Assembly: GCA_001918745.1 (NCBI GenBank)
Contig: MNGN01000052.1
Span: 1 to 35,885 of the forward strand
Reading direction: 5' to 3'
Origin: Crenarchaeota archaeon 13_1_40CM_3_52_17
GTDB taxonomy: Archaea > Thermoproteota > Bathyarchaeia > 40CM-2-53-6
Length of the DNA: 35,885 nucleotides
This document shows, piece by piece, positions 29,820 through 35,885 of the stretch (positions within the stretch are counted from its first letter, which is position 1; each line of letters opens with the position of its first letter). The translations under genes and the position numbers were made by a program. The notes under the pieces were generated by a model. It was not told the origin of the DNA. It saw only the letters and a program-made list of their open reading frames with translations, and did not search any database.

Positions 29820-30086
29820 ATGATTAGCACTAGTGCTGATTTGACCCGGAAGTCATTGTTGAACATCAACGATTCCCCGAATGGCACACTCCTGCTCGAA
29901 GTCATCGAGGAACGGATAATAAGTTCACTGGGCGACAAGCCAAATAGTTCAATCAGCGAAATCGCAAAAGATCTCAAAGTCAATAGGTCAACAGCGTCGA
30001 AATACCTGCATGTTCTCCGCGCAAAAAAGAAAGTCGCATTTCGACAAGTAGGGCCAGTCAAGCTCTGGTCGTTGGAGGTGCAATAA
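29820..30086 (+). CDS. Winged-helix (ArsR-like) transcription regulator
   Basis: 88-residue DNA-binding protein. After about 20 variable residues it shows LLEVIEERIISSLGDKPNSS-type first helix, then the helix-turn-helix SISEIAKDLKVNRSTASKYLHVLRAKK and a wing VAFRQVGPVKLWSL. No metal-binding cysteines of the classical ArsR sensors are present. Its TAA overlaps the ATG of the following KaiC gene by one base (TAATG), so the regulator and ATPase are produced together. It may control this locus; that is inference. Confidence 0.85.
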   Translation: MISTSADLTRKSLLNINDSPNGTLLLEVIEERIISSLGDKPNSSISEIAKDLKVNRSTASKYLHVLRAKKKVAFRQVGPVKLWSLEVQ

Positions 30087-30826
30087 TGGAAGTCAGAAGG
30101 GCAGTCGCCCCAAGTATCCAAGAATCAGACGATCGAGTACCCACTGGGATTCCCAGTCTAGACAAGATAATCGAAGGCGGGCTCCGACGAGGCGACTGCA
30201 TTATCGTTGCCGGCCAGCCCGGAACCGGCAAGACAACCCTCGGACTACAATTCCTTTACCATGGCGCAACCCGATGCGGAGAAAACGGGGTCTACGCATC
30301 TGTCATAGAGAGCGGGGAAAAACTGAAACGTAACGGTTTGAGGTTCGGATGGGACCTCAACCGACTCGAAACAGAAAACAAGCTACGCCTAGTCTCTCTC
30401 CAATCCACCATGAAAGCCGGCGTTAGCACGGCACTTGAAACGGTTCTGGAAGCCTTGCACAGCACGAACGCCAAGAGGCTCGTATTCGATTCACTCTCAG
30501 CACTAATGACTGCCTTCGAGAGCAATGCCGAGGCCAGAAGCTTTCTCCATATCATGGTGAAATTCTTAGAGGCTGCAAACTGTACAACGCTGATGATAAG
30601 CGAGATCCCTTGGGGAAAGCAACAACTTGGCACCAACTTCGAAGAATTTCTGGGAGACGGCCTTGTGATATTGGACGCGAGCTTCGACAATTCGAGGGTC
30701 CGCCGAAGGGTCTACATTCCAAAGATGCGAGGAACTGAGCACAGATTAGAAGGATATGACTACTACATAACAAGAGACGGCTTCTCCCTGGCACCGACGC
30801 CCATTCCCCCCGACAAAATACGATGA
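30086..30826 (+). CDS. KaiC-like RecA-superfamily ATPase (1)
   Basis: Single-domain KaiC/RAD55-type ATPase of 246 residues. The KaiC opening VPTGIPSLDKIIEGGLRRGD leads into the Walker A GQPGTGKTT (K49, T50). The segment VYASVIESGEKL occupies the position of the KaiC catalytic glutamates but retains only part of them. The Walker B aspartate is in RLVFDSLSALM. Near the C-terminus, RRRVYIPKMRGTEHRLEGYDYYIT matches the common KaiC tail. Such archaeal proteins act in signal transduction with little known about partners. It is coupled to the HTH gene upstream and followed by a T6 tract. Confidence 0.9.
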   Translation: MEVRRAVAPSIQESDDRVPTGIPSLDKIIEGGLRRGDCIIVAGQPGTGKTTLGLQFLYHGATRCGENGVYASVIESGEKLKRNGLRFGWDLNRLETENKLRLVSLQSTMKAGVSTALETVLEALHSTNAKRLVFDSLSALMTAFESNAEARSFLHIMVKFLEAANCTTLMISEIPWGKQQLGTNFEEFLGDGLVILDASFDNSRVRRRVYIPKMRGTEHRLEGYDYYITRDGFSLAPTPIPPDKIR

Positions 30827-30856
30827 TCCAAGAATAAGCAAACCAATGCTTCAGCC

Positions 30857-30862
30857 TTTTTT
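30857..30862 (+). terminator. T6 tract after the HTH-KaiC pair
   Basis: CCTTTTTTG lies 31 nt after the first KaiC stop and 33 nt before the next gene. Archaeal polymerases terminate at T-runs without requiring a hairpin, so some termination here is plausible. Nothing in the following 30 nt is a strong box A, and part of the transcript may read through. Confidence 0.35.
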
Positions 30863-30894
30863 GTCGCCTCTCAAGGACGGTTGCGGACAATCAA

Positions 30895-31932
30895 ATGCCC
30901 CCGCTTAGGAGCGATCTCCTTGAGAAGCTCATCGGGTCGGAAACCAAAGCCGAGCTCCTGATGTATTTCCACGACAACCCCGACACAACAGATTCAGTAG
31001 AGGGAATCGCCGCAAAGATCCGGCGAAACCCAAAGGAAATCGAGCGCGACGTGTCAGATCTCGTTGAGCTAGGCTTGCTTCAGGAGGTGCGAGTCATCTC
31101 ATTCAGCAAAGACCGAGATCAAGAGTTACAGAGAGAGATCTCGCAACGACTTGTGTCTGCCGGCTCGTTCGAGGAGCAATCAACCTCCTCGAATAGAGAC
31201 CTGACAGGAGTCGGGATGATTGACTCGCTCTTACCCGATGGTTATCCCTCGTCATCGGTCGTACTTGTCATGGGGGATCCTGCAACAGGGAAAACAACCC
31301 TTCTGATCCAGCTTGTCGCCGAGGCTTTGAAAAAAGGCAGAAACGTCGTCTACGCGGCCTTAGACGATTTTCCAGACAGCATCAGAGAGTCCATGAAACT
31401 AATGGGGGCTAATCCGAGAGACTATGAAGTTGAAGGAAGGAGAAAACTAGTCTTCATAGACTGTTACTCGTTCCTCGTGGGCGTAAAAAGCCAGGAACAA
31501 TATAGCGAAGATCCTCAACGCCTGTCTGACCTCAGTATCGTCGTGACAAAAGCCCTGTCCGAAGCTCGCGACTCTGGCAACGTCCTGCTTGCGATGGACT
31601 CACTAACGACTCTCATCCAAAGAAGCGGAGTAAGGCCCTCATTCGATTTCTTACATACCTTGATTGCAAAGATAAGGAGCAATCGAGCTAGCTGTGTAAC
31701 ATCACTTTCGAGGAAAGCATTTCATCCAGCCATAATCGCCGCGATACAAGACAAGGTTGATGGTGTGATTGAGATGAAGGTGGAAGACACAAAGGATGGA
31801 TTGGCACGTTTCATTAGGGTTTCGAAGATGAAGGGCGCCCAACACATAACCACATGGACTCCTTACAATCGAGACCCCTCGATGGGTCTGATTATCCCCT
31901 ATGAAGAGTCTAACGTGAAGAAATCAGTTTAG
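30895..31932 (+). CDS. KaiC-like ATPase with N-terminal winged helix (2)
   Basis: 345 residues in two parts. Residues 1-90 form a predicted winged-helix domain (ETKAELLMYFHDNPDTT, SVEGIAAKIRRNPKEIERDV, LGLLQEVRVISF). After a linker, residues 101-340 form a KaiC-type ATPase with Walker A GDPATGKTT (K133, T134), the segment VYAALDDFPDSIRESM in the usual glutamate region and Walker B LLAMDSLTTL. An ATP-driven switch joined to a DNA-binding module suggests a regulator whose DNA contact depends on nucleotide state, but no partner is known. It starts with ATG and converges with the third KaiC gene, the stops only 5 nt apart. Confidence 0.85.
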   Translation: MPPLRSDLLEKLIGSETKAELLMYFHDNPDTTDSVEGIAAKIRRNPKEIERDVSDLVELGLLQEVRVISFSKDRDQELQREISQRLVSAGSFEEQSTSSNRDLTGVGMIDSLLPDGYPSSSVVLVMGDPATGKTTLLIQLVAEALKKGRNVVYAALDDFPDSIRESMKLMGANPRDYEVEGRRKLVFIDCYSFLVGVKSQEQYSEDPQRLSDLSIVVTKALSEARDSGNVLLAMDSLTTLIQRSGVRPSFDFLHTLIAKIRSNRASCVTSLSRKAFHPAIIAAIQDKVDGVIEMKVEDTKDGLARFIRVSKMKGAQHITTWTPYNRDPSMGLIIPYEESNVKKSV

Positions 31933-31937
31933 TTCTG

Positions 31938-32702
31938 TCACAGAACGCTTTCGCGTGGAAAGACTTCAATTCCCGTATCAGTAATCCTGTACGGCCTCGG
32001 TTGGTTGTCTAACGGGGTTTTGCGCATTTTCTCCACCTGAATCACCCGTAGTAGCGACTTACCGACTTGCAATTGCTGGAGAAGTATGACTCCGTGAGCG
32101 AGATACTCTTCGTAATCGAGGCTTCTTTCGAAACCCGGCCTTCGAAGTTCAGTTGTAATCAAGCACGTCGCGCCAGTGTCTGCTAGCGCCTCCATAAGTT
32201 CAACCAAGGCGTTCCGTTGGGCCGCCACTCCTTCGTATTGAAAAACCAATGTTGTCACGGGGTCGACAACTATTCTCTTAGCCCCGATCTCCCGAACGCT
32301 CGTCTTGATCATCTCAATCAACGTTGCCATAGAGAACTCCTTTCGGCCGACGGTTAATTTTCCAACCTTAATCTCGGCAGGAAGATATCTGATTGGCGAA
32401 GCTTCGAGAAAAATTAGTTTCTTGTTATTCTCAAGATCCTGAAAGTCCCAACCGAAGTCAAGCATTTCCTCGAAGACGTGTTGTTTGTTTTCGTCGAGGC
32501 TGACATAGACACCGGTTTCCTCGTAGTCCAAGATCCCATTGACGAGATACTGAGAGGACAGTATCGTCTTGCCCGTCCCGGGTCCTCCTGAGAGGAGAAT
32601 GGTTCTGTTCTTAGGCAATCCACCTGTGAGCAACTTATCGAGGCCTGGAATCCCAGTGGGAGTTCTAGAACTAGCGTTCGGATTGCCCGAGGAGTCACCC
32701 AA
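31938..32702 (-). CDS. KaiC-like RecA-superfamily ATPase (3)
   Basis: Single-domain KaiC family ATPase of 254 residues on the opposite strand. TPTGIPGLDKLLTGGLPKN precedes Walker A GGPGTGKT (K45, T46). VYVSLDENKQHVFEEML covers the KaiC glutamate region and RIVVDPVTTLVF is the Walker B segment. The C-terminal LLRVIQVEKMRKTPLDN and PYRITDTGIEVFP match typical archaeal KaiC. TTG start. It is divergent from the TackOD1 gene across a 149-nt region with a 15-bp inverted repeat. Among the three KaiC proteins it has the most canonical sequence. Confidence 0.9.
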   Translation of the reverse strand: MGDSSGNPNASSRTPTGIPGLDKLLTGGLPKNRTILLSGGPGTGKTILSSQYLVNGILDYEETGVYVSLDENKQHVFEEMLDFGWDFQDLENNKKLIFLEASPIRYLPAEIKVGKLTVGRKEFSMATLIEMIKTSVREIGAKRIVVDPVTTLVFQYEGVAAQRNALVELMEALADTGATCLITTELRRPGFERSLDYEEYLAHGVILLQQLQVGKSLLRVIQVEKMRKTPLDNQPRPYRITDTGIEVFPRESVL

Positions 32703-32795
32703 TAGTGTTCAAAAACGGTGGAGACAACTCGCAACCATATTCGTTCTGATACGTCTAGTGTCTCGAACAAGATACAACTCCCGAATATCCATCGA

Positions 32796-32810
32796 CAGGC
32801 GTCTCGCCTG
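32796..32810. promoter_or_regulatory. 15-bp inverted repeat between KaiC(3) and TackOD1
   Basis: CAGGCG-TCT-CGCCTG is a perfect dyad in the divergent promoter region, 41 nt before the TackOD1 ATG. No strong box A is evident close to it. A regulator binding site is possible, for example for one of the winged-helix proteins of the locus, but this is conjecture from symmetry alone. Confidence 0.35.
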
Positions 32811-32851
32811 CGAATAGCCAGAGGCACCTAGGAGGGGTAGAGTCAATAGGA

Positions 32852-33862
32852 ATGACATCCAAGGATAGGCTTACCCTATACCAGGATCAAGGTGTCCAGC
32901 TACTCCTAGGCAGATTTGTAAAAGGGGAAATCGTCGAACTCGTGCCCAGCTTTGATCTCAGCCAAACAGCTAGATATCCTGAAGTGGAGGAAGTCGTCGA
33001 TGGTGATACGACCGCTGCGAAGCAACTGGTTGAGAAACTTTGGGACGTTGGAATATTCAAACGCAAGTTCCATGAAAAAATCTTGGTTTGTCCGAGTTGT
33101 TTGTCTGCAAATGTCAGCAATGATTATGTCTGCCCCAATTGCAATTCAATTGACATAGAACGCAAGACTCTTCTAGAACACACAGCTTGCGGGACAATAG
33201 ACAGCGTAGACAACTTTCTGGTCGCAGGCAGCCTTTATTGTCCCAAATGCAATAAGGAGCTGATCGAAGCCGGGGTGGATTATCAGAAGCTCGGTGCCTG
33301 GTTTCAATGCTCTCAGTGTGGAAAGAGGTCGGATTTGCCAAGCCCGATTCACAGATGCAGAAGTTGCGGACACATCTTCACTATCAAAGACACGGGGTTT
33401 GTGAACGTCTATAGTTACCGTATTAGTTCTGATTCAGAAGAAGAATTCAAGCGGACCTTTCTAGTAATGAAGCCTATCGGTGCTACGCTTGAGGATTTCC
33501 AATACAAAGTCGAGATGCCCGGACAGGTCGCGGGCCATTCCGGTGCCCTCCACAGATTTGACGCAGTTGCCTCAAAGGGCTCATCGGAGCTGGTTGTTCT
33601 CGACGTGATCGCCAGTGAACGGGAGATCGAAGAGACCCCCATTGCATCGCTCTACGCCAAAGTGTTTGACGTAAGTCCTACTCAAACAATCCTTGTGGCG
33701 ATTCCAGGGCTAACGGAGAAGGCGAGGAAGCTGGCGTCTCTGTACAGAATCTCTGTCATCGAAGCAAGTGACTCGCAGCAGGCAGCGGACCTCCTAAAGG
33801 GGCATTTTGGCTGGACAGGCCTTTCGGGAAATGAAGAATCGATAGATGACTTGCAATTGTAA
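32852..33862 (+). CDS. TackOD1 (thaumarchaeal output domain) zinc-ribbon protein
   Basis: Residues 1-75 are an alpha/beta region. A cysteine-rich core follows: C80/C83 with C94/C97, H110/C113 with C130/C133, and C153/C156 with C169/C172, separated by LLEHTACGTIDSVDNF, GVDYQKLGAWFQC and HRCRSCGHIF. This is the TackOD1 pattern, known as an output module of thaumarchaeal signalling proteins, here without a receiver domain. The C-terminal part, residues 225-320 (GALHRFDAVA, VVLDVIASE, YAKVFDV, ILVAIP), resembles a PD-(D/E)xK nuclease-like fold in outline, but the catalytic ExK lysine is not evident, so it is perhaps inactive. Function unknown. Start ATG. Confidence 0.82.
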   Translation: MTSKDRLTLYQDQGVQLLLGRFVKGEIVELVPSFDLSQTARYPEVEEVVDGDTTAAKQLVEKLWDVGIFKRKFHEKILVCPSCLSANVSNDYVCPNCNSIDIERKTLLEHTACGTIDSVDNFLVAGSLYCPKCNKELIEAGVDYQKLGAWFQCSQCGKRSDLPSPIHRCRSCGHIFTIKDTGFVNVYSYRISSDSEEEFKRTFLVMKPIGATLEDFQYKVEMPGQVAGHSGALHRFDAVASKGSSELVVLDVIASEREIEETPIASLYAKVFDVSPTQTILVAIPGLTEKARKLASLYRISVIEASDSQQAADLLKGHFGWTGLSGNEESIDDLQL

Positions 33863-33905
33863 CCTTGTCACTACTAGCAAAGGTTACACCAATCTCAAGG
33901 TGAAC

Positions 33906-33923
33906 AGCCACTTTGCGGTGGCT
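33906..33923 (+). other. Hairpin upstream of the AbrB-like gene
   Basis: AGCCAC (33906-33911) and GTGGCT (33918-33923) form a 6-bp stem with loop TTTGCG. It lies 43 nt after the TackOD1 stop and 13 nt before the GTG of the AbrB-like gene. It may form a weak terminator, an operator, or an mRNA structure affecting that start. Confidence 0.3.
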
Positions 33924-33936
33924 AAGTTGACTCCTC

Positions 33937-34134
33937 GTGCCATTGAAGGTCAAACCTGTCAAGCTTAGAGACAGCCTTTACTTGCTAATCCCCGTGGATA
34001 TAGCAAGGTTGCTAGGAGTCGCGGCGTCGTCTCATTTTCAACTGAGTTTGAACGAGAATCAAGAGTCTGTCAGGCTCGTCTATGAAATGAGGAAAGACGA
34101 ACCGCCAAAGGAAGTCATTACGAAAGACGAGTGA
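33937..34134 (+). CDS. AbrB/SpoVT-fold DNA-binding protein
   Basis: 65-residue swapped-hairpin protein. The core VKPVKLRDSLYLLIPVDIARLLGV is a typical AbrB strand-loop-helix pattern (RKxGxSlxvtiPxxiaxxLgl), written here with Leu-Arg-Asp-Ser and Ile-Pro as landmarks near residues 10-19, and FQLSLNENQESVRLVYEM completes the fold. A short charged tail follows. Start is GTG, or TTG two codons later. No toxin gene is adjacent, so it is more likely a regulator of this locus than an antitoxin. The next gene begins about 27 nt downstream. Confidence 0.82.
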   Translation: MPLKVKPVKLRDSLYLLIPVDIARLLGVAASSHFQLSLNENQESVRLVYEMRKDEPPKEVITKDE

Positions 34135-34160
34135 GGCGGTGAAAATTAGTTCATCAGATC

Positions 34161-35885
34161 TTGGACCTGCTAGCGCTCGGCGCTTCTGGCATGGCCTTGC
34201 TCTTCACAATTCGAGCCAAGAAAACCTATTTTCTGGACTCGGTTTTCTTCATCATCGCGGCAAACATTGGTTTCATCCTGTTTCTCTCTGATACTACGTT
34301 CTCAGATCTCATTAACAGGCCTCCCAACCCATACCTCGACACCATTTTCATAGCGTTGACGGCAATTTCGATCGGTTTCGCAAGTTACCTTTTGAAGGAA
34401 AGCGGGGGAAAGGGAGGATTCACGGAGTTTACGACGTTCCTCAAGATGCTTCCGAGAGCATTACTCGCGTTCCTTCTCATCTCAATAGTCTGGGCAACGG
34501 CAACTCTAATTTGGCGGCCGTTTACCGTGAACAACTTGATCACCAACGGGGAGTCCATCTACTATTTTTCCTATGACGGCTGGTACATACTAGTCAGCTC
34601 TTTGTTGTTGGCCTCGTTCATAGCACTTCCCGTCTTGGCCTTTTACAGGCAGTCGAGACGAGTACAAGATCCGAAAGCCTCGAGCTCGATCAGACTCATT
34701 AGCATCTGCTGGGCTTGTTTCGGTCTCATCACTTTCTTTCAGCAAGCATTTGCCGGAGCCTTCGCCAGTTTGGTCAAGAGTTTCAGTATCGTAGCAGACG
34801 GGGCCCTATTCGTCCTCGTGTCCTTTGCTCTTAGGGAGCCCACCATCCTGAGCAGAATTGTCACCGGTGGCGAGATGATCTTCCAAGCTGTAAGTTCGAG
34901 TACGGAAGAGGACACGGTGGTGTTGTACAACTCGGAATCTGACAGGAAGAGGCTCGTTGAAAGGTTCGTAGAAGATGGACTAGCAACTGGACAAGAGTTG
35001 GTCTTTTACGCAATAAAGTCAGAAGTCCCTTTTTACAGAGCAATTGTGAAGGGAACTACGCCTGATCATTCGCGACAAAAGAGTCCACAGATGATGATTC
35101 AATCCATTGATTTCGGAAGCGGCGAAGCACCAACTGATCTCGCCGTTCCTCCCGGATTTCACCGGACCAAGAGAGAACTGGTTGACCTTGGGGAATTGAG
35201 CTTGGACCAATGCAACATGATAATATCCAAGGTCAGGTCCCTCGACAGTCTTCCCGGTCCTCGGCGAAGACCGCGGATATGGGCTCTCAATGTCGAGGAG
35301 GCACAATCTGGTACACTTCAGGCCTTACGTGAAGCGAACCCTAAGGCTCGAGTCCGCGACCTCGCACTTCAACAAGACAGTTTTTCGAAACTGCTCAATA
35401 CAAGGCATCAAGCTCTTTCAAAAAGTAGAATCCTGCTAGAATACGATCCTACGAGCAACTATGAAGATGCAGTGCAGAAATTTGCCCGAGAATTCCAAGC
35501 GAACGTCGAGCCAATTGCAATATTCACTAGCATGGGAAGTCCAACGTTTCGACAGTTTAGAGGGCAACATAACTTGCGATTGTTCACCTTCAGTGCAAAA
35601 ACGTCAACTCCTTCCAAGGTTTCTGAAGAACATGTTCTGCTGCCTGAGAGGGACACCTCCTTGCTCCTTGATGCAGTCGATAAGCTGCTACAGGCAAACC
35701 ATGGCCGTTTGGTCGGAATGGTTTTCGACGTATTCACTGACTTGATCCTCTTTCAAGGATTCGAAAAGGGCTATGGCGTCTTGTCATCTGTTGTTGAGAT
35801 GTCCGAGTCAGAATCCGCTTCAACACTTGTGTTGATTAACTTCACGGCTCTCGATGAGAGGTCTCTGAACGGAATAAGAGGTCTT
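34161..35885 (+). CDS. Seven-helix membrane sensor with MEDS-like and DUF835-like cytoplasmic domains (partial)
   Basis: An open frame runs from a TGA at 34140 to the window end (575 codons from TTG 34161; C-terminus missing). Residues 1-225 hold seven hydrophobic segments, near 1-17, 24-42, 58-78, 97-118, 139-160, 175-195 and 205-222. A cytoplasmic region follows, beginning at M239 (EEDTVVLYNSESDRKRLVERFVEDGLATGQELVFY). That is the opening of a MEDS-type, KaiC-derived sensory domain, without a visible Walker A. From about residue 425, PIAIFTSMGSPTFRQF, GMVFDVFTDLILFQGFEKGY and STLVLINFTALDERSL resemble DUF835, also KaiC-related. Start is TTG 34161 or ATG 34191; no clear ribosome site fits either. 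A membrane input for the KaiC cluster is a reasonable inference. Confidence 0.8.
   Translation, partial: MDLLALGASGMALLFTIRAKKTYFLDSVFFIIAANIGFILFLSDTTFSDLINRPPNPYLDTIFIALTAISIGFASYLLKESGGKGGFTEFTTFLKMLPRALLAFLLISIVWATATLIWRPFTVNNLITNGESIYYFSYDGWYILVSSLLLASFIALPVLAFYRQSRRVQDPKASSSIRLISICWACFGLITFFQQAFAGAFASLVKSFSIVADGALFVLVSFALREPTILSRIVTGGEMIFQAVSSSTEEDTVVLYNSESDRKRLVERFVEDGLATGQELVFYAIKSEVPFYRAIVKGTTPDHSRQKSPQMMIQSIDFGSGEAPTDLAVPPGFHRTKRELVDLGELSLDQCNMIISKVRSLDSLPGPRRRPRIWALNVEEAQSGTLQALREANPKARVRDLALQQDSFSKLLNTRHQALSKSRILLEYDPTSNYEDAVQKFAREFQANVEPIAIFTSMGSPTFRQFRGQHNLRLFTFSAKTSTPSKVSEEHVLLPERDTSLLLDAVDKLLQANHGRLVGMVFDVFTDLILFQGFEKGYGVLSSVVEMSESESASTLVLINFTALDERSLNGIRGL

Follow-up and report, generated by a model that had tools for sequence, protein, structure and literature searches.

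A conserved archaeal cluster of KaiC-like ATPases, TackOD1 and a seven-transmembrane protein with KaiC-derived domains as a candidate signalling module

How do KaiC-like ATPases connect to the outside? The question arises for Crenarchaeota archaeon 13_1_40CM_3_52_17, in whose 80%-complete assembly 20 places match the KaiC model PF06745 and no receiver domain was found at E 0.001. One contig of this genome, MNGN01000052.1 (35,885 nucleotides, analysed here in full and called the window), carries at positions 29820-35885 a cluster of seven genes: a stand-alone winged-helix (wH) gene, wH1; three genes for KaiC-like ATPases, KaiC1, KaiC2 and KaiC3; a TackOD1 gene; a small gene; and the gene of a protein with seven transmembrane segments (7TM). 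What do these genes do together? An earlier reading made from the letters alone (the sequence-only reading) had taken them for a signalling hub in which a membrane sensor with inactive KaiC-derived domains could hetero-oligomerise with active KaiCs, seed or cap their rings and hand the state on to DNA-binding partners, without phosphotransfer. Its observation proves right in most parts. We lean towards a KaiC-centred signalling module leading from the membrane to gene expression, with the 7TM protein as its receptor; the data are best read as a signalling cluster based on KaiC, which matches a KaiC hub idea already in print and cited in a passage of PMC5847659 as Makarova et al. 2017.

Gene order and the eighth gene

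The window is contig 34 of a 1.78 Mb Bathyarchaeota assembly (66 contigs). The nearest named relatives of the assembly are Bathyarchaeota metagenome-assembled genomes (MAGs), which we take to be of soil origin, in agreement with the depths given in their names. Genes were called from open reading frames and from Pfam scans of the cluster proteins against the Pfam cut-offs. Below, "family" means the archaeal family of the genome under study, and the "named loci" are L071-L086, 16 loci in 15 genomes; L087, a weak match in a Bacteroidetes MAG, lies outside this set.

All seven genes stand in order in 9 of the 16 named loci, six others are collinear up to their contig ends, and all seven are again present, together with an eighth gene, in G018, a genome of another genus of the same family. 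At family level, the conservation of gene order exceeds chance. The sequence-only reading had proposed that conservation of the neighbourhood be checked in relatives and that the DNA beyond the window be read; the first of these checks came out in its favour. The locus lies at the right end of the window, where the sequence stops at the contig end (L021), and relatives show what follows: a gene of 125-135 residues comes after the 7TM gene in all 15 named loci that extend past it; the two genes share 4 bases in 14 of these loci and 19 bases in L083 with the start as taken. PF11537 (NitrOD5) had no match in the three copies scanned. The encoded protein is 38% identical to a NitrOD5-like protein (BLASTP, one pair) and aligns with the NitrOD5-like reference set in hhalign at 99.4% probability. 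A passage of PMC5847659 assigns NitrOD5 itself to a 'Death domain-like' family of archaea.

Farther 3', beyond the eighth gene, Pfam identifies PTH2, a PF01877 RNA-binding protein and proteasome alpha (one copy each). An exosome/proteasome gene block lies directly downstream of the cluster in the four loci read (L073, L075, L078 and L083); its exosome-type genes are presumably such, their names being assigned by us from the sequence.

The receptor, the ATPases and TackOD1

The full-length ortholog of the 7TM protein in L073 has seven hydrophobic segments, and seven long helices appear in the structure model of the receptor, together with two alpha/beta regions (predicted local distance difference test score, pLDDT, 69.6; predicted template-modelling score, pTM, 0.42). 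Seven membrane spans had been read from the window copy, as had KaiC-derived domains without a Walker motif, and both hold: the motif GxxxxGK[ST] is absent in 16 of 16 aligned receptor copies, the truncated window copy included, and KaiC is the top match of the model in the PDB. Taken singly, 13 of the 16 receptor copies match MEDS (PF14417), at best with E 0.0012, and 7 of the 16 match DUF835 (PF05763), at best with E 8.9e-4; all these matches are weak. A same-genome paralog that lies next to a gene for TFB exceeds the MEDS cut-off (43.4 versus 29.8 bits). The kinship of these two domains with KaiC, also asserted in the sequence-only reading, agrees with a passage of PMC5847659 in which DUF835 and MEDS are listed as inactivated KaiC.

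The structural matches of the receptor model point the same way. The highest-ranking PDB entries are two-domain KaiC chains, matched over about 450 columns with E values from 2.6e-5; full-chain values are about 17 for the root-mean-square deviation (rmsd) and 0.2-0.3 for the template-modelling (TM) score. Fourth place goes to a rhodopsin-GTPase chimera, and the highest TM score per target among the matches listed belongs to PH0250 of Pyrococcus (0.64 over 210 columns). As far as a predicted model allows, these matches fit the right domains in an uncertain arrangement. A sequence search of the PDB with the receptor profile gave no match. In the G018 receptor (L099, 7317-8792) no MEDS-like domain was found and the DUF835-like part is joined directly to the 7TM part; the G050 receptor is likewise 7TM directly followed by a DUF835-like domain, with no MEDS-like domain found. 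Because both receptors join the two parts directly, 7TM-DUF835 looks like the constant core of the receptor.

The three KaiCs of the cluster all exceed the PF06745 cut-off of 26.6 bits. GxxxxGKT and the Walker B aspartate are intact in KaiC1, KaiC2 and KaiC3 and in the orthologs aligned with them. Judged by these motifs, the presumed juxtaposition of active KaiCs with a membrane protein bearing dead ones appears correct, the P-loops being kept in the three ATPases and lost in the receptor. Each chain has one KaiC domain, unlike the two-domain KaiC of the cyanobacterial KaiABC clock. KaiC3 is 85-100% identical across the named loci, and the best match of wH-KaiC2 is at least 73% identical in 20 of 21 family genomes, the one under study included. 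The HTH-KaiC couple, the third KaiC and the TackOD1 protein named in the sequence-only reading are all borne out by Pfam scores over cut-off. Its wH-KaiC fusion stands in part: the KaiC half is secure by its PF06745 score, and the wH half is matched below threshold only (PF25212, E 0.0017).

The zinc part of TackOD1 contains five CxxC motifs and one HxxC (CPSC, CPNC, HTAC, CPKC, CSQC and CRSC), as in the definition given in a passage of PMC5847659, which describes TackOD1 as a response-regulator output domain and calls its function obscure. Residues ~193-318, beyond the reach of the PF18551 model, appear to form a PD-(D/E)XK-like domain. In the structure model this part (residues ~201-320) has a pLDDT of 61-86 per ten-residue block, with one block at 44 (48.2 for the whole protein), and elements in the order alpha-beta-beta-beta-alpha-beta. 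The three leading Foldseek matches were EndoMS, AF1548 and MspJI (E 5e-5 to 7e-4, the sole matches with E <=0.001), with low TM scores on the target (0.19-0.44) and rmsd of 8.6-13.4. Further restriction enzymes came lower, as did RPB5 and CRISPR ancillary nucleases. A profile of 12 TackOD1 members had AF1548 as its top match (E 0.058), and Mrr_cat was matched by 5 of the 12 (best E 0.001). The lysine of (D/E)xK is missing in 12 of 12 aligned members. Beyond the family, 38 TackOD1 loci were scanned, and 36 of them had a match to the same PD-(D/E)XK-like domain. Because zinc ribbons are combined with a nuclease fold lacking the catalytic lysine, TackOD1 is likely a nucleic-acid binder rather than a nuclease, which gives a concrete hypothesis for its obscure function.

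Recurrent neighbours, the proposed path and its rivals

Outside the family, a KaiC gene lies within 500 bases of 5 of 11 DUF835-like loci (L138, L155, L157, L158 and L159), the 11 loci representing all 12 listed receptor-search matches outside the family. As a control, 73 listed TackOD1 places over cut-off gave 71 loci, in 70 of which the gene was read, and KaiC was equally close in 3 of these 70 outside the family (L136, L246 and L256; Fisher p 0.0008). KaiC and a membrane-DUF835 gene stand on one strand in two of the five, L138 and L159, which belong to two other families; the L159 membrane protein has seven segments, and in L138 the membrane part is interrupted by a stop, with three segments read. 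One further DUF835-KaiC pair occurs inside the family (L164, in G019). In a tree, KaiC1 groups with the KaiCs that adjoin DUF835-like genes in L159, L155 and L138, whereas the KaiCs found in L164, L158, L157, L136 and L122 group with KaiC3.

Of the 55 genomes searched, 30 supplied a best match of KaiC1 and 30 a best match of KaiC3. A DUF835-like gene adjoins 2/30 KaiC1-type and 1/30 KaiC3-type loci, and TackOD1 adjoins none of the 30 and 1/30, respectively. TackOD1-KaiC as a general pair was rejected on the 3/70 TackOD1 loci and this single KaiC3-type locus. A NitrOD5-like gene is near 11/30 KaiC1-type and 0/30 KaiC3-type matches (p 0.0003), a comparison in which the KaiCs of at least 2 of the 11 loci (L191 and L192) adjoin proteins used in the NitrOD5 model.

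In the module that we propose, the cytoplasmic end of the 7TM receptor would consist of two KaiC-fold domains without catalytic activity, one MEDS-like and one DUF835-like. A ligand or a membrane state would alter these domains, and they in turn would act on one of the active KaiC-like ATPases, KaiC1 being the likeliest, by way of the RecA-fold surface, the co-translated NitrOD5-like adaptor, or both; they might also cap KaiC rings. In this inward direction, the state of the ATPase would set whether wH1, the wH fused to KaiC2 and TackOD1, with its zinc ribbons and dead nuclease fold binding nucleic acid instead of cutting it, act on putative DNA targets. KaiC3, divergent from TackOD1, would be a second ATPase and perhaps a feedback arm. 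Precedents in print, besides the listing of DUF835 and MEDS as inactivated KaiC, are KaiC-DEATH pairs and KaiC genes close to pilus genes (a passage of PMC4858521) and the KaiC homologs ArlH and CirA, which take part in motility control (a passage of PMC13286277).

Several observations weigh against such a module. The seven genes do not form one indivisible unit, and wH1, KaiC1 and KaiC2 are separable from the others. L083 keeps KaiC3-TackOD1-small gene-7TM and lacks wH1-KaiC1-KaiC2 upstream of KaiC3; G020 has wH-KaiC2 on a separate contig, with TackOD1, the small gene and the 7TM gene together (L039); and G019, inside the family and 67% complete, has a 43% identical wH-KaiC2 relative and no TackOD1 match. 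Six of the 11 outside DUF835-like loci are without KaiC, some of them on short contigs, and KaiC lies within 500 bases of none of 33 family 7TM-DUF835 paralog loci (34 were fetched, one without a DUF835 part); such receptors therefore need no KaiC neighbour. TackOD1, as said, adjoins KaiC in just 3 of 70 loci. NitrOD5-like genes are near 10 of 16 two-domain KaiCs (~475 residues) and 1 of 14 shorter, KaiC1-like ones; since these neighbours go with the two-domain proteins, the link of the NitrOD5-like adaptor to KaiC1 itself is weak, and all seven reference proteins of the NitrOD5-like set score below the PF11537 cut-off. The KaiC tree was built from a selective set, namely KaiCs of the same genome and KaiC neighbours at the fetched loci. 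Finally, confidence in the receptor model is modest, and its KaiC match is poor over the full chain.

The separability of the genes also speaks for a rival in which two or three regulators with no functional tie, a unit of wH and KaiC genes and one of TackOD1, 7TM and NitrOD5-like genes, simply lie side by side and have kept their order because the region beside the exosome-proteasome block is stable. The three arrangements just described (L083, G020 and G019) favour it, and the exosome/proteasome genes do come next in the four loci read; set against it are the order kept across two genera, the KaiC genes beside 5 of 11 DUF835-like loci and their adjoining of membrane-DUF835 genes in two other families, and we regard the rival as possible, if rather unlikely. 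The same downstream block, with its exosome-type, PF01877 RNA-binding and PTH2 genes, raises the alternative that TackOD1 acts on RNA together with the exosome and is tuned by the receptor, which is unlikely given that TackOD1 is known, from a passage of PMC5847659, as a response-regulator output domain. Type IV pili or other surface structures might be what the cluster controls, as passages of PMC4858521 report for TackOD1 (arCOG06883) and for KaiC-DEATH pairs. We consider this very improbable here, with no pilus gene among the neighbours scanned with Pfam and no PF00437 match over cut-off in the 80%-complete assembly. Equally remote is a KaiC oscillator with a DEATH-like protein in place of KaiB, proposed in print for KaiC-DEATH pairs (a passage of PMC4858521): KaiC1 and KaiC3 are single-domain proteins, unlike the ~475-residue two-domain KaiCs found near NitrOD5-like genes (10 of 16). 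The KaiC-centred module stays our preferred account.

Would such a module work without phosphotransfer, as had been supposed? No histidine kinase or receiver is found among the seven cluster proteins, and the sole HATPase_c protein of the assembly resembles topoisomerase VI B, a label that we presume from its sequence and neighbours. Together with the lack of a receiver match in the assembly, this part of the claim stands. It does not extend to the genus, in which one or two receiver domains occur in 10 of 18 genomes, the present one being counted in the 18: the lineage is poor in two-component parts, not free of them. A defence system was considered and rejected, PADLOC having given only wH-type matches (Csa3, CasR and CARF3) and weak mad8 matches.

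Gene layout, sister receptors and known systems

The genes run in the order wH1-KaiC1-wH/KaiC2, then a convergent KaiC3, then TackOD1-small gene-7TM (Table 1), with intergenic gaps of -1, 68, 5, 149, 74 and 26 bases; the wH1 stop and the KaiC1 start share 1 base. KaiC3 is convergent with KaiC2 and divergent from TackOD1, so that, by orientation, wH1-KaiC1-KaiC2, KaiC3 and TackOD1-small gene-7TM make up three transcription units or more.

Table 1. Features of the cluster in the window and of the two sister receptor loci in the same genome.
Feature	Position	Strand	Evidence or remark
wH1, stand-alone winged helix, 88 residues	29820-30086	+	HTH_5 PF01022 23.8 bits, cut-off 22
KaiC1, single-domain KaiC-like ATPase, 246 residues	30086-30826	+	PF06745 188 bits; GQPGTGKT; Walker B D
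KaiC2, N-terminal winged-helix-like region fused to KaiC-like ATPase, 345 residues	30895-31932	+	PF06745 93.6 bits
KaiC3, KaiC-like ATPase, 254 residues	31938-32702	-	PF06745 219.8 bits; GGPGTGKT
TackOD1 protein, 336 residues	32852-33862	+	PF18551 124 bits, cut-off 32
Inverted repeat CTTTGC-N5-CNAAG	33911-33926	+	just 5' of small gene; candidate operator or hairpin
Small protein, 65 residues, family unconfirmed	33937-34134	+	conserved in cluster
7TM receptor gene, start ~34161, cut by contig end	34161-35885	+	575 of ~620 residues present
TFB-linked receptor locus, same genome	L140 2645-5699 (G000:C26)		
SdhA-linked receptor locus, same genome	L139 2981-6589 (G000:C29)		

The small protein had been labelled AbrB-like, which is not confirmed: it matches no Pfam AbrB model, and its only match is a weak one to PF24397 (VNG_1110C-like). 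The inverted repeat upstream of its gene is invariant in 11 of 11 aligned sequences from chosen loci. Matches to the repeat in the window are not above chance (3 versus 1.2 expected; at least 3 in 15 of 100 shuffles), and two of the three are the site itself, read on both strands. The divergent gap between KaiC3 and TackOD1 (window 32702-32852) holds a TGATAC that does not vary among the 14 sequences aligned, and a G-N-TACA stretch lies 18 bases beyond it, possibly a promoter or an operator. A palindrome in the same gap, CAGGCG-TCT-CGCCTG, was rejected for want of conservation.

Among the matches listed, 36 further 7TM-DUF835 places occur in the family, in two types of 18 each. The first type (7TM-MEDS-DUF835) lies directly 3' of a same-strand TFB gene in 16 of 18 places, the remaining two (L169 and L287) ending at contig ends. 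The second type (7TM-DUF835) lies directly 5' of SdhA in 16 of 18, a count that includes L166, where SdhA is a weak partial match only; the exceptions are L286, at a contig end, and L152, a further copy in G013 without SdhA beside it. In the genome under study, the TFB beside the receptor scores lowest of three TFBs. These sister receptors extend the finding from the cluster to a receptor class. Tentatively, we propose an archaeal class 7TM-(MEDS)-DUF835 with the dead KaiC tail as transducer, of which one soil-archaeal family may keep three kinds that differ in the effector next to them: the KaiC/TackOD1/NitrOD5-like cluster for one, a divergent copy of the general transcription factor TFB for another, and succinate dehydrogenase for the third. 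The tails would engage either KaiC rings or the effector directly. If true, membrane signals would be passed on by ATPase assembly and not by phosphotransfer, and TFB would be used somewhat like a regulated sigma factor.

Judged from titles and the starts of abstracts, neither the cluster arrangement nor the TFB- and SdhA-linked receptors were found described among the papers listed, and the 2017 mBio paper on KaiC hubs may contain part of the former. Four features look new: the eight genes in their fixed arrangement, the repeated pairing of KaiC with membrane-DUF835, the dead nuclease fold in TackOD1, and the linkage of the sister receptors to TFB and SdhA.

Parts of the cluster have relatives among known systems. 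With the pairs of KaiC (arCOG01174) and a DEATH-like protein (arCOG03758) at type IV pilus loci, described in a passage of PMC4858521, the cluster shares a KaiC-type ATPase and a small DEATH-like partner; here, in contrast, the partner gene overlaps the receptor gene and not the ATPase gene, and the assembly is without a pilus ATPase over cut-off. The REC-DUF835 and REC-TackOD1 response regulators in a passage of PMC5847659 share DUF835-like and TackOD1 domains with the cluster, whose seven proteins are without a receiver and whose DUF835-like domain sits instead on a 7TM-MEDS part. L157 resembles REC-DUF835, with a receiver and a DUF835-like domain (by our own hidden Markov model) beside KaiC. 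The PD-(D/E)XK proteins AF1548, EndoMS/NucS and Mrr share fold and motif layout with the C-terminal domain of TackOD1, which differs from them in the missing lysine of (D/E)xK. Makarova, Galperin and Koonin (2017, mBio 8:e01959-17) reportedly describe signalling hubs of archaea built on KaiC-like ATPases, said to comprise active KaiCs, dead KaiC domains (DUF835 and MEDS), wH outputs and DEATH-like adaptors, all of them shared with the present cluster. What sets the present cluster apart is that TackOD1 and a 7TM receptor join these parts in eight genes of fixed order, within one archaeal family that also keeps sister receptors beside TFB and SdhA genes. Such a fixed cluster opens the KaiC-hub proposal to in vitro tests on a few small proteins.

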